Below, piece after piece: positions 7,385 through 14,833 of a stretch of 33,729 nucleotides of DNA. A model generated the notes under the pieces. It was not told the DNA's origin and ran no database searches. It worked only from the letters and a program-made list of their open reading frames with translations. Source of the DNA: Clostridia bacterium (GTDB lineage Bacteria; Bacillota; Peptococcia; DRI-13; SV3-B141); contig JAHDSB010000053.1 in NCBI GenBank assembly GCA_018433015.1, positions 1-33,729 on the forward strand, given 5' to 3'. A program made the translations under genes and the position numbers. Numbering within the stretch: position 1 is the stretch's first letter; each line of letters starts with the position of its first letter.

Positions 7385-8182
7385 ATGAAAGTACATATTT
7401 ATGACAATTATCAACAATTAAGCACACAGGCAGCCCAGTGCGTTGCAAAACAGCTCAAGGAGAAAAAAGCTAGTGTGTTAGGGTTAGCAACAGGCAGTAC
7501 GCCTCGTGGTATGTATGCGGAACTTGTGCGCTTTTATAAAGCAGGAAAATTGGATTTTAGCTCAGTTACAACATTCAACTTAGATGAGTATTATGGTATC
7601 AGTAAAGAAAACAAACATAGTTATTACTACTATATGAGGGAAAATTTGTTCCAATATATTAATATAGATATAAAAAATGTACATATTCCTAATGGTTTAG
7701 CTGAGAATGTGGAGGAAGAATGTTTACGTTATGAAAAGGAGATTACTGGGGCGGGAGGACTGGACTTAATAGTATTAGGAATAGGTAGAAACGGTCATAT
7801 TGGGTTCAATGAGCCGAACATACAATTTGAAACTATGACCCATTTAGTTAGATTAGATAAGGACACCATTAAAGCCAATACCAGATTTTTTGAGAAGGAA
7901 GAAGAGGTTCCTACAACTGCTATTAGTATGGGAATAAAAACGATTATGCAGTCTAAAAAAATATTACTGTTAGCCAACGGAAGAGATAAAGCATCGGCTA
8001 TTCACAAAGCACTGTTAGGAAAAGTACGACCGGATATACCGGCTTCCATATTACAGTTGCACAATAATGTATCCATATTTTTAGATAAAGAAGCAGCTAG
8101 ATTTTTGTCTCCTAAGAAAGATAAGACAAAAAGATTAAGATGTGCATTTGATTACAATACTACTCTGATAAGTGAAATGTAA
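7385..8182 (+). CDS. nagB: Glucosamine-6-phosphate deaminase
   Basis: The protein converts glucosamine-6-phosphate to fructose-6-phosphate and ammonia, the last step of amino-sugar use. LGLATGSTP binds the phosphate, Asp67 lies in NLDEYYG, and the active-site loop reads GIGRNGHIGFNEP (Asn136, His138, Glu143). Asn in place of the first loop Asp of the E. coli enzyme is also what I recall for Bacillus NagB, so it is not a defect. At 265 residues it is about 20 longer than the short Bacillus form, with a basic tail (SPKKDKTKRLRC) after the usual end. GAGGATGGAG precedes ATG 7385. It is the last gene before a strong terminator. Confidence 0.95.
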   Translation: MKVHIYDNYQQLSTQAAQCVAKQLKEKKASVLGLATGSTPRGMYAELVRFYKAGKLDFSSVTTFNLDEYYGISKENKHSYYYYMRENLFQYINIDIKNVHIPNGLAENVEEECLRYEKEITGAGGLDLIVLGIGRNGHIGFNEPNIQFETMTHLVRLDKDTIKANTRFFEKEEEVPTTAISMGIKTIMQSKKILLLANGRDKASAIHKALLGKVRPDIPASILQLHNNVSIFLDKEAARFLSPKKDKTKRLRCAFDYNTTLISEM

Positions 8183-10322: not shown

Positions 10323-10351
10323 TTGACAAACAGGTTATATGTTTATATCAT
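10323..10351 (+). promoter_or_regulatory. Strong sigma-A type promoter ahead of a structured leader
   Basis: A perfect TTGACA (10323-10328) is followed by exactly 17 bases and TATCAT (10346-10351), five of six matches to the -10 consensus. It lies 190 bases upstream of the methyltransferase gene, so the transcript would have a leader of about 180 bases. Confidence 0.7.
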
Positions 10352-10357
10352 ATAAAT

Positions 10358-10530
10358 TAATGAAAATATATGTATAAGAAGTACATATAGGCAGATAAAA
10401 ATCTGCCAGCCGTCGGCGTTAAAATTGATTAGTTAAAACATTTGCATATTGTATTGAACAACTTATAGTATGAAGCTATATTTTGGGAAGCTAGAAAGCT
10501 CTCTTAGAGGGCTTTCTTTTTTTATTGAGA
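10358..10530 (+). promoter_or_regulatory. Structured 5' leader with terminator (candidate riboswitch or attenuator)
   Basis: Between the promoter and the operon start lie an 8-bp hairpin (10367-10374 with 10382-10389), directly stacked next to a perfect 7-bp hairpin GGCAGAT-AAAA-ATCTGCC (10390-10407), then a GC-rich GCCGTCGGC segment (10409-10417) in otherwise AT-rich DNA, and finally an intrinsic terminator (10493-10523) only 18 bases before the start codon. Promoter, aptamer-like folds and a terminator just before a gene is the layout of a transcription-attenuating leader. I do not recognise a known riboswitch class. A small independent RNA is the alternative. Confidence 0.45.
10493..10523 (+). 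terminator. Intrinsic terminator directly upstream of the methyltransferase gene
   Basis: An 11-bp stem (AGAAAGCTCTC 10493-10503 with GAGGGCTTTCT 10507-10517, one G-U pair) with a three-base loop is followed by a run of T. It comes after the 10323 promoter, so it is more likely regulatory than the terminator of the DUF89 gene 207 bases upstream. Confidence 0.75.
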
Positions 10531-10541
10531 GGGTGAATTAA

Positions 10542-11378
10542 ATGAATAGTGAGGAAATCTTTGCAAAGTGGAGGTTGAAAGGAAATAACAAAGAAGCAAG
10601 TGTTGATATGTGGAATTCCATGGCACAAAGCTTTAATGAGCAAAGGATACCATCTTTTGCAGACAATAAATTTTTGCAGCTTCTGCAAAGAAATAACATG
10701 TTTAGCCTTGATTCTCTTGTACTTGATGTAGGATGTGGTCCAGGAAAATATACTCTAGCTCTGGCGGAACGCTGTAAAAAATGTGTCGGTGTAGATCTTT
10801 CTCCTAGAATGATTGAAATTGCCAAGCAAAAGAAGGTAGAAGAAAAGTTAGAAAATATTGAGTTTTACTGTGCCGATTGGCATGAAGTTAATTTACAGCA
10901 GATGGGGTTTGAAAAGAAGTTTGATCTTGTTTTTGCACATTTGACTCCTGCTGTGCAAAGCGCGGATACATTTCAAAAGCTTTTGTCTGCTAGCAAAGGT
11001 TGGTGTGTGTTGTCGAAACCTACCCACCGTACCGATCCTGTATCTGATAAGGTTAAAAAACTTGTAGGAATAACAGAAAAACGCGAAAGTTGCAATGAGG
11101 AAATCCTGTTTGCATTTGAGCTCTTGTGGCGACAGGGAATGTTTCCTTGTGTTACCTATGAAAAGCAGCGGTGGAGTATGCAAAAAACGTTGAACGAAGC
11201 ATATGGAATGTATATTAATCGCGCTAAAACTTATCGTAATATATCTTTGGCAGAAGAAGAGATAATAAAACAATATTTACAATCCATTGCAGTAAACGGA
11301 TTGATATGTGAAGAGGTCGATACTACTATTACTACATTGTACTGGCATGTTGAAAAGGAGGTAATATGTAATGAATAA
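10542..11378 (+). CDS. Class I SAM-dependent methyltransferase (transport operon)
   Basis: This 278-residue protein has a Rossmann methyltransferase core. Motif I is LVLDVGCGPGKYTLALAE, the acidic residue at the end of strand 2 is in CVGVDLSPRM, and CADWHEV and FDLVFAH mark the following strands. The substrate is not predictable. GAGAGGGTGA at 10527-10536 precedes ATG 10542. The last eight bases overlap the FmdE gene, and three ABC transporter genes follow, so it is probably made together with an import system and may modify the imported compound or its metal ligand. This five-gene run looks somewhat richer in G and C than its neighbours by eye, a possible sign of transfer. Confidence 0.82.
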   Translation: MNSEEIFAKWRLKGNNKEASVDMWNSMAQSFNEQRIPSFADNKFLQLLQRNNMFSLDSLVLDVGCGPGKYTLALAERCKKCVGVDLSPRMIEIAKQKKVEEKLENIEFYCADWHEVNLQQMGFEKKFDLVFAHLTPAVQSADTFQKLLSASKGWCVLSKPTHRTDPVSDKVKKLVGITEKRESCNEEILFAFELLWRQGMFPCVTYEKQRWSMQKTLNEAYGMYINRAKTYRNISLAEEEIIKQYLQSIAVNGLICEEVDTTITTLYWHVEKEVICNE

Positions 11379-11898
11379 ACAATTATGGGACAAAGCAGTG
11401 GCCTTTCACGGACATGAATGTCCCGGGCTGGCAATTGGCTTCAAGGCCTGTGAGGCTGCGGCAGAAAAACTGGGAATTGGAAGGTCTAATGATGAGGATA
11501 TTGTGTGTGTTACGGAAAATGATGCCTGTGGGGTGGATGCTATTCAGGCCATTTTTAGTTGCACATTTGGTAAAGGAAATTTGCTCTATCGGGGTACAGG
11601 TAAACAGGCTTTTTCCTTTTTCGAGCGTACTAGTGGAAAGAAATTGCGCATTTGTTTAAAACCAAAAAAGAATGAAGGTATGGAGCGGGCCCAGTGGCAA
11701 AAGTATCTTTTAAATGCTCCTGTAGATGAGATTTTTTCCTTTTCGGAACCAAAATTTGCTGTGCCTGAAAAAGCGCGGTTATTTAATACGGTAATTTGCG
11801 AGATCTGCGGCGAAGGTGCACCCGAACATAAAATGCGAGCGCAGGATGGGAAATTGGTATGTATGGACTGTTTTAAAATCTACGATAGAGGTTGGTAA
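11371..11898 (+). CDS. FmdE family protein with C-terminal zinc ribbon
   Basis: The 175-residue protein starts with the FmdE signature AVAFHGHECPGLAIGFKA (HGHECPG at residues 13-19), continues with TENDACGVDAIQ and ends in a zinc-ribbon-like motif with Cys143/Cys146 (CEIC) and Cys164/Cys167 (CMDC). FmdE is named from the molybdenum formylmethanofuran dehydrogenase operon of methanogens, but bacterial copies occur without that enzyme and their reaction is unknown. Conserved His and Cys suggest metal or cofactor binding. Translation overlaps the methyltransferase (ATG 11371 before its stop at 11378). The downstream importer makes a role in handling an imported metal species the most economical idea. 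Confidence 0.85.
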   Translation: MNKQLWDKAVAFHGHECPGLAIGFKACEAAAEKLGIGRSNDEDIVCVTENDACGVDAIQAIFSCTFGKGNLLYRGTGKQAFSFFERTSGKKLRICLKPKKNEGMERAQWQKYLLNAPVDEIFSFSEPKFAVPEKARLFNTVICEICGEGAPEHKMRAQDGKLVCMDCFKIYDRGW

Positions 11899-11925: not shown

Positions 11926-13026
11926 ATGAATAAAAAGTTGATGGTACTAATTTCGGTACTGGTATTGATTTTAACCGGATGTACAGCTGTGACATCTTCC
12001 TCATCTTCTGAGCAGGAGTCTGAAACCCGTATGATCACCGATGCCTTTGGGCGTCAGGTTGAACTGCCTGAAAAGATAGAAACTGTAGCTGCTATCGGTG
12101 GTGCAGCCCGTATCCTTACTTACGGCGGGTGTGCTGATAAGCTGGTAGGCGTGACAGATATGGATAAAAAGAATGTGTCAGCCATGCCCTATAGCGTTGT
12201 CAATGCCGAACATTTTGCCACGCTAACTTCAGTAGGGAGTGGTGGCAGCAATGATACCTGTTATATAGAGGAACTAGTAACCCTTGCTCCTGATGTTATC
12301 TTTGGTATGACTGATGAAGATACCATCAAAAATATAGCAGCAAAGACGGGTATTCCTACCATCAGTATCTATCCCACCGACATGTTTGATGAGAGCTTTT
12401 ATTCCGCTTTGGAGCTGATTGGTCAAGTAATGGACACCCAGGACCATTGTTCGCAGGTAATCAACTATGTACAGGATTGTCAGAAGGATTTGGCTAATCG
12501 CACAAAGAACATCCTCGACCAAGATAAGCCTTCCGTTTATACTGGGGCTGTAAGTTTTCGCGGTGCCCATGGTTTTGAAGGTACCTACGCTCTTTATCCA
12601 CCATTTACTGCTATTCATGCCAAAAATGTAGTGGATGAAACGGGGGGATCGGGTGCCTTGCTGATAGATTTGGAAAAGGTAATGGAATGGGATCCCGATA
12701 TTATTTTCCTCAATCCCACCAATATGAACCTGGTTAATGAGGATTATGCAAAAAATAAAGCTTTTTATGATAACTTACAGGCAGTACAAAAGGGCCAAGT
12801 ATATGCCCAGATTTCTTATAACTACAATTGGACCAATATGGAAATCGCTATCGCAGATGCCTATTATGCAGGTAAAATAATTTATCCGGAGCAGTTTGCA
12901 GATATTGATCCTATTGAAAAAGCAGAGGAAATCTTTACAGTGATGCTGGGGGAACCCTTCTATGAGGAACTGGCGGCAGACGGCTATCAATTTGGTAAAA
13001 TCACTATAGGAAATAGTAGGGAATGA
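11926..13026 (+). CDS. ABC transporter substrate-binding lipoprotein (FecB/BtuF/FhuD type)
   Basis: The 366-residue protein starts with a lipoprotein signal (MNKKLMVLISVLVLILTGC, lipidated Cys19), followed by a Ser-rich linker and the class III binding-protein fold used for siderophores, haem, cobalamin and, in MolA-like cases, molybdate. ITDAFGRQVELPEKIETVAAIGG and the later DIIFLNPTNM segment are typical of the family. It would sit on the outer face of the membrane and deliver ligand to the permease at 13023. GAAGGTAA precedes ATG 11926. The stop codon overlaps the permease start (ATGA). The ligand is unknown. Confidence 0.9.
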   Translation: MNKKLMVLISVLVLILTGCTAVTSSSSSEQESETRMITDAFGRQVELPEKIETVAAIGGAARILTYGGCADKLVGVTDMDKKNVSAMPYSVVNAEHFATLTSVGSGGSNDTCYIEELVTLAPDVIFGMTDEDTIKNIAAKTGIPTISIYPTDMFDESFYSALELIGQVMDTQDHCSQVINYVQDCQKDLANRTKNILDQDKPSVYTGAVSFRGAHGFEGTYALYPPFTAIHAKNVVDETGGSGALLIDLEKVMEWDPDIIFLNPTNMNLVNEDYAKNKAFYDNLQAVQKGQVYAQISYNYNWTNMEIAIADAYYAGKIIYPEQFADIDPIEKAEEIFTVMLGEPFYEELAADGYQFGKITIGNSRE

Positions 13027-14075
13027 AAAAACAGGGGACATACAATGGATATATTCATTTTAAGAAAATTTTTATTCTTTTGCTTGGCGCTGTCACCGGG
13101 CTTCTGGCTTTATTAGCAATCAGTGCGGGTTCAGCAGATCTTTCCCTAAAGGATGTGATCATGACCCTCTTGGGCTGGGGCAGTAAACAGTCATCAATCG
13201 TAGTATTTAACCTTAGGATGCCTAGAATTGTGACTGCTATTGTTGCGGGGATCGGCCTTGCCACGGTAGGGTGCGCCATGCAGAGTATCTTGCGCAACCC
13301 TTTAGCTTCTGCATCAACTTTGGGGATTGCCCAGGGTGCGGCTTTCGGAGCTTCTTTTGCCATTATTGTTTTAGGGGCCGGAATGCAGAACCAAACCTTG
13401 GATGGGATTACTATTTTAAATCCCTATCTGGTATCTATTTGCGCTTTTGTTAGTGCTATGATGTCTACCTTGATTGTACTGGGACTATCTCATTACAATA
13501 AAGTTTCTCCCGAGGCTATGGTATTATCGGGTGTGGCCTTGAGTACACTATTTTCCGGTGCTACAACGCTTTTGCAATATTTTGCAGAGGATGTAAAGGT
13601 GGCAGCTGTGGTATTTTGGACCTTTGGTGATTTGGGGCGTACCAGCTGGAGGGAAGTGCTGGTTATGTTTATTATGGTGGTAGTTGCCCTGATCTATTTT
13701 ATTTTTAATCGTTGGAATTACAACGCCTTGCAAAGTGGGGAAGAAACGGCCAAAGGTTTGGGCGTCAATGTTGATAGTATGCGTATCAGCGGCATGTTAA
13801 TTTGTTCCCTGACTGCCTCTACCATTGTTTCTTTTGTGGGTATTATAAATTTTATTGGGCTTATAGCACCCCACTTAGTACGGCGATGTATTGGCAGTGA
13901 TTATAGGTATCTTCTTCCTTCATCAGCCTTGATGGGAGCACTCTTGTTGCTATTGAGTGATACAGTGGCTCGTTTAGTGGTATCACCCATTATTTTGCCT
14001 ATTGGTGCTATAACCTCTTTCTTGGGGGCACCTTTATTCCTGTATTTGCTGTTTAAGGAGGTTGGCAAAAAATGA
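13023..14075 (+). CDS. FecCD/BtuC-type ABC transporter permease
   Basis: This 350-residue permease has about ten hydrophobic segments. Family landmarks are LRMPRIVTAIVAGIGLATVGCAMQSILRNPLA (residues about 61-92, named by its ends LRMPRIV and ILRNPLA), the TLGIAQGA stretch and the ATPase-contacting GFIGLIAPHLVRR-like loop, here NFIGLIAPHLVRRCIGSDYR. Such permeases import iron-siderophores, haem, cobalamin or molybdate/tungstate. It starts with ATG overlapping the binding-protein stop by four bases and ends overlapping the ATPase start by four bases, so the three parts are translationally coupled. Confidence 0.92.
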   Translation: MKKQGTYNGYIHFKKIFILLLGAVTGLLALLAISAGSADLSLKDVIMTLLGWGSKQSSIVVFNLRMPRIVTAIVAGIGLATVGCAMQSILRNPLASASTLGIAQGAAFGASFAIIVLGAGMQNQTLDGITILNPYLVSICAFVSAMMSTLIVLGLSHYNKVSPEAMVLSGVALSTLFSGATTLLQYFAEDVKVAAVVFWTFGDLGRTSWREVLVMFIMVVVALIYFIFNRWNYNALQSGEETAKGLGVNVDSMRISGMLICSLTASTIVSFVGIINFIGLIAPHLVRRCIGSDYRYLLPSSALMGALLLLLSDTVARLVVSPIILPIGAITSFLGAPLFLYLLFKEVGKK

Positions 14076-14833
14076 TAGAAGTTAAAAATTTAGATTTTTG
14101 CTATAAAAAAGATAAGGTTATTCTTAGTCAAGTAGCATTTGATGCTATAGAGGGTCAGTGTATTGCTGTATTGGGCAATAATGGTGCAGGGAAAAGCACA
14201 CTTATTAAGTGTCTCAACCATATTCTAGAACCACAAAAAGGTTACATTTATGTAAATGGGGAGAACGTCTGCGATTTTAAGCGTAATGAGATTGCAAAGC
14301 GTATGGCTTATGTGGCGCAACATAATACTGTTGATAAGTTTACTGTCTTTGATTCTGTATTATTAGGACGCAAACCATATATAAGGCTGGAACCTAAACA
14401 GGAGGATATAGAAATTACGGAGTCGATTATTAAGCGGATGGGATTGGAAAGTTTTGCTTTGCGTTATGTGGATGAACTTTCTGGCGGTGAGAGGCAAAAG
14501 GTAATGTTAGCCCGAGCATTAGCTCAACAACCACGGGTGCTGTTGCTGGATGAGCCCACAAGCAATCTTGATCTGCGCAACCAATATGAGGTGTTAGCAA
14601 CAGTGCAGGAGATTGCAAGACAAGATAATATTAGTGTTATTATAGTTATTCATGATTTGAATCTGGCCCTGCGCTACTGTGATCGGTTTCTATTTGTCAA
14701 AGATAGCAAGATCTATACTTATGGGGGTCCAGAGGTTATGACTCCTGGGAATATCAGTTTTGTGTATGAGATGCCCGTAGCAGTGGAAACGATTTGTGGT
14801 GTGTCCATGGTTGTTCCCTTGCCGCAAAATTAA
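14072..14833 (+). CDS. ABC transporter ATP-binding protein of the FecE/BtuD type
   Basis: The 253-residue ATPase has Walker A GNNGAGKST (about residues 36-44), signature LSGGERQ, Walker B VLLLDEPTSNLD and the switch histidine in VIHDLNLALRYCD. It powers the FecCD-type permease encoded just upstream, with ATGA overlap of the two genes. The C-terminal part (MPVAVETICGVSMVVPLP) matches the small extra domain common in FecE proteins. It is the last gene of the operon and is followed by a terminator. Confidence 0.93.
   Translation: MIEVKNLDFCYKKDKVILSQVAFDAIEGQCIAVLGNNGAGKSTLIKCLNHILEPQKGYIYVNGENVCDFKRNEIAKRMAYVAQHNTVDKFTVFDSVLLGRKPYIRLEPKQEDIEITESIIKRMGLESFALRYVDELSGGERQKVMLARALAQQPRVLLLDEPTSNLDLRNQYEVLATVQEIARQDNISVIIVIHDLNLALRYCDRFLFVKDSKIYTYGGPEVMTPGNISFVYEMPVAVETICGVSMVVPLPQN

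Follow-up and report, generated by a model that had tools for sequence, protein, structure and literature searches.

A candidate nickel/cobalt-linked transcription attenuator with tandem ANGRA-loop hairpins before an importer operon of a Clostridia bacterium

In the guanidine-II (mini-ykkC) riboswitch, tandem hairpins with short conserved loops control expression. The RNA element which we describe here is similar in these respects, but the guanidine-II loops are ACGR, whereas the element has an AYGRA pentaloop or an AGRA tetraloop and is found with nickel/cobalt genes. The NiCo (czcD) riboswitch is another case of RNA control of nickel/cobalt-linked genes. However it has a different architecture and it is linked to exporters, while the element is linked to uptake and maturation genes. 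Cobalamin riboswitches precede distant relatives of the operon studied here, but none is present in the window. The protein CsrA prefers ANGGA loops, which resemble the loops in part of the members of the element; GAA is however the commoner element loop. The antitermination systems with ANTAR proteins (EutV, NasR) have tandem hairpins, conserved loop bases and a second hairpin which overlaps the terminator stem, as the element does. Their targets are dual hexaloops with A1 and G4 (PMC8934654), whereas the element has A-N-G-R-A pentaloops with G at position 3. Its spacing is also far more variable and several of its carriers encode no ANTAR protein.

A search of Rfam 15 at gathering thresholds, with guanidine-II, NiCo, cobalamin and TwoAYGGAY included, gave no match on the element; relaxed thresholds gave only chance-level matches on the window leader. 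An earlier sequence-only reading had seen no known riboswitch class here, in agreement with this search. We did not find the element in the open-access literature, and control of nickel/cobalt uptake by it at the RNA level in anaerobes is apparently undescribed there. Most probably the element family consists of transcription attenuators which are linked to nickel/cobalt and missing from Rfam. For the leader in the window we favour, with a probability of about 0.55, a conditional transcription terminator (attenuator) which belongs to this widespread family.

The leader in the window and its orthologs

The window, which is the whole stretch of DNA analysed, has 33,729 nt (Clostridia bacterium, GCA_018433015.1, contig JAHDSB010000053.1, positions 1 to 33,729, forward strand). 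Its relevant features are given in Table 1. The sequence-only reading had proposed a promoter, a leader of about 165 nt with two adjacent perfect hairpins, and a terminator 18 nt ahead of the start codon: all of them are confirmed. With 11 of 12 positions as in the consensus, the promoter ranks best among 30 promoter-like sites in 6 kb. Transcription would start near 10358, with P1 shortly downstream. The terminator is the top entry of the terminator scan, and the predicted folding of the leader is better than in all 200 dinucleotide shuffles (z = -4.7). A proposed alternative pairing of the GC-rich patch with hairpin 2 had to be abandoned: the predicted folds do not contain it and the comparison of relatives does not support it, nor does hairpin 2 recur across the family. 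P1b, and the loop motif which it shares with P1, had been overlooked. The fold which contains P1b and the terminator-overlapping hairpin is less stable than the minimum by 2 kcal/mol, also while the terminator is still incomplete.

Table 1. Features of the leader and of the operon in the window
Feature	Position	Strand	Description
Promoter	10323..10351	+	Predicted; TTGACA (10323-10328)-N17-TATCAT (10346-10351)
Hairpin 1 (P1)	10367..10389	+	UAUAUGUAU-AAGAA-GUACAUAUA; 9 bp, ANGRA loop, innermost pair U.G
Hairpin 2	10390..10407	+	GGCAGAU-AAAA-AUCUGCC; 7 bp, loop AAAA, no ANGRA loop
GC-rich patch	10409..10417	+	GCCGTCGGC
P1b	10464..10480	+	UAUAGU-AUGAA-GCUAUA; 6 bp, ANGRA loop, aligned in L023
Terminator-overlapping hairpin	10489..10500	+	AGCU-AGAA-AGCU; P2 position, weak, 4 bp, loop one base short of ANGRA
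Intrinsic terminator and T-run	10493..10524	+	Stem 10493-10517, 11 pairs
Class I methyltransferase	10542..11378	+	First gene of the operon
FmdE	11371..11898	+	C-terminal zinc finger
Peripla_BP_2 protein	11926..13026	+	Substrate-binding, BtuF-like
Permease	13023..14075	+	FecCD/BtuC type
ATPase	14072..14833	+	ABC transporter

We have compared the leaders of close orthologs of the methyltransferase (56-67% identity). Most of them end in terminators, and most have in common small hairpins with an A-N-G-R-A pentaloop and a pyrimidine-purine closing pair, for example GGCU-AUGAA-GGCC (L027), GAGUC-AUGAA-GGCUC (L030) and GGAGC-AUGGA-GCUCC (L005); in L024-L026 and L029 no clear ANGRA hairpin was found. 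A lack of conserved structure in orthologous leaders would have refuted the sequence-only reading; instead most of them have ANGRA hairpins, and there are covarying competing helices. We define the family partly by at least two ANGRA hairpins in the leader, and the window leader has them in P1 and P1b. Both have at least 6 bp, a combination which appears in none of 5000 dinucleotide shuffles of the same leader.

The leader of the 67% ortholog (L023) can be aligned with that of the window over its full length, and the hairpins then fall on each other (the alignment scores 111.5, shuffles 74 +/- 6.6). The counterpart of P1 is GUAU-ACGAA-AUAC; in P1b one stem pair differs on both sides, G-C to U-A. 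In the place of the terminator-overlapping hairpin L023 has GCU-AAGAA-GGC. The position of P1 also agrees with that of P1 in the larE leader of the window's own genome. Judging from the ANGRA hairpins, the alignment with L023 and the canonical elements which precede orthologous operons, the window leader appears to be a diverged member of an RNA switch family which is widespread.

Eight leaders (L024, L026, L027, L028, L030, L044, L006, L054) share a second element between terminator and start codon, AUCCCCCC..GCGG.UUGU...GGG.AAUCUUGAU...AGGGGU. Its C-run might base-pair with the Shine-Dalgarno region. This second element is found neither in the window leader nor in L023. Among distant relatives of the methyltransferase, cobalamin riboswitches lie upstream in L008 and L010 and downstream in L012, which hints that the operon may be linked to corrinoids or cobalt.

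Competing helices and gene association across the phylum

The last ANGRA hairpin of the family, P2, has the form xCC-AYGRA-GGy and lies inside the 5' arm of the terminator in most orthologs; the 3' arm is CUUYRUGG, followed by U's. P2 and the terminator compete for the 5' arm and cannot coexist. This pattern was searched in 398 genomes of the phylum and gave 35 matches, against about 8 with the reversed pattern. In the pattern matches the bases x and y covary (12 A-U, 7 G-C and 1 G-U; permutation p = 1e-4). Both bases are in the 5' arm and do not pair with each other in the terminator, which does not demand their covariation. In 40 elements, collected by requiring the third pair and not the outer pairs, pairing in the P2 helix reaches 82.5%; slid versions give 50% or less, and all 500 shuffles lie below the P2 value. 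The terminator helix is 96% paired, also above every shuffle. Two mutually exclusive conserved helices with one strand in common are the signature of a switch.

Of 87 elements, 29 have an additional upstream ANGRA hairpin; shuffles give 1.7, a 17-fold enrichment, and eight altered loop patterns occur only 0-4 times each. In 28 of 42 elements there is an apical hairpin whose loop contains GRA. Loops and closing pairs are strongly conserved, while the number of hairpins varies, their spacing ranges from 20 to 120 nt and there is no conserved junction.

A covariance model (R1) built from 38 elements finds the element at E <= 0.01 in 115 of the 398 genomes, which are related and give counts that are not independent; if the rough E-values hold, about four genomes are expected by chance. 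There are up to 14 copies per genome, a ready-made regulon. The first downstream genes were counted in about 100 elements, by sequence clusters with one annotated exemplar each, and some of these first ORFs are guesses. Uptake genes are prominent: CbiM/NikM (12), nickel-type SBP_bac_5 binding proteins (10), Peripla_BP_2 (5), FecCD (3), and nickel/peptide-type ATPases (4) and permeases (3). Other genes are FmdE (5), DUF4198-like (5), methyltransferases (4), CooC-like ATPases (4) and DUF3842 (3), together with CobN, CooT and LarE. The genes after the element are thus largely nickel/cobalt-related, and the element marks FmdE, DUF3842, DUF4198 and the methyltransferase of our operon as related to these metals. 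Nickel enzymes such as CO dehydrogenase, hydrogenase and lactate racemase sustain these anaerobes.

In carrier genomes an ANGRA hairpin is convincing and close to the gene in about 13 of 30 CbiM leaders. Most FmdE leaders in these genomes lack the element, partly because FmdE is often internal to an operon. In the window's own genome, where CbiM was not found, the strict pattern has no match and the model gives one convincing match, before larE (TIGR00268, 329 bits), the product of which is LarE of the nickel-pincer cofactor. This larE leader has a TTGACA promoter with the P1 hairpin directly behind it. Another match in this genome (G000:C78, L199) was discarded, as it appears to fall in a coding region. 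Two genomes of the same order (G001, G008) carry the element before both larE and FmdE. In G001 this FmdE gene stands ahead of a related methyltransferase and a FecCD permease.

Small membrane proteins which resemble ECF-transporter S components (MPFLTAQIPNLGSRLLPMHIPVLL type; L298, L079, L188, L094) are likewise encoded behind the element. Upstream of the leader, a repeated GCAGGA(A/T)TT...AGAATA, similar to a sigma-H-type promoter, is found before cbiM elements (L108-L111, L115).

Mechanism and alternative readings

In the attenuator which we favour, two or three small A-N-G-R-A-loop hairpins would form during transcription of the leader. P2, the last of them, would occupy the terminator's 5' arm, and only one of the two could form. 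While P2 is held, the polymerase would go on into the importer operon; without this, the terminator would form. Read-through may take place when the metal is scarce, as is sensible for uptake genes. P2 would probably be held by a trans-acting RNA-binding factor which grips the tandem loops: with their variable spacing they are most like the sites of such a protein. The AU-rich leader in the window should work like the canonical members. It counts against this reading that the variable spacing and the gene sets are no proof of metal sensing. The original suggestion of an attenuator, possibly metal-linked, is supported by the terminators with a covarying competing hairpin and by the nickel/cobalt genes; its anatomy of hairpin 2 against the patch is not.

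The question which the element poses, a sensor RNA or a sensor protein, can be tested directly. Could the tandem hairpins themselves decide whether P2 or the terminator forms, by binding Ni2+, Co2+ or a cofactor with nickel or cobalt? The strong conservation of loops and closing pairs speaks for it, as do the tight gene association and the use of cobalamin riboswitches by distant relatives of the operon; the ligand might possibly be contacted loop to loop, as in guanidine-II. On the other hand the wide variation in hairpin number and spacing is against it, and the simplest polarity, in which a ligand stabilises P2 and turns expression on, is the wrong one for an importer whose own metal represses it. 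We consider this reading rather unlikely, and only as a tentative idea would the element be a new class of riboswitch for nickel, or for a nickel/cobalt cofactor, in control of nickel uptake and nickel-enzyme maturation across the phylum. It is helped by the fact that no tested protein occurs in all carriers, which keeps direct sensing by the RNA viable. Among known antiterminators and RNA-binding proteins, ANTAR, CsrA and CooT are very improbable partners of the hairpins. ANTAR has the same logic and is encoded in the window's own genome, but it is missing in 9 of 26 carriers and the loops break its hexaloop rule. CsrA would suit the loops of GGA type, but most are GAA and it is missing in 6 of 26 carriers, with the window's own genome among them. 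CooT is a nickel protein; its genes adjoin some elements and co-occur with them (odds ratio 25), which may reflect only a shared nickel metabolism, but it is missing in 28 of 115 carriers, again including the window's own genome. Since each is missing from some carriers, none can be the universal sensor.

There is also the doubt whether the window leader belongs to the family at all. It could be an ordinary leader, with a terminator which is constitutive or serves the upstream gene, and resemble the family by chance. Model R1 has no match there, its stems are AU-rich and the hairpin which overlaps the 5' arm of the terminator is weak. R1 was trained on GC-richer CC-AYGRA-GG members. Against a chance likeness we have the absence of two such hairpins from the shuffles, the full-length alignment with L023, the canonical elements before orthologous operons, also within the same order, and the promoter, which lies after the upstream gene and ahead of the terminator. 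We find such a coincidence improbable.

CooT domains were also observed in long frames beside FmdE matches (G384:C68, about 7430-8178; G142:C1, about 384280-385105), and other genomes have CooT frames of 260-330 aa. The long frames beside FmdE matches are possibly FmdE-CooT fusions.
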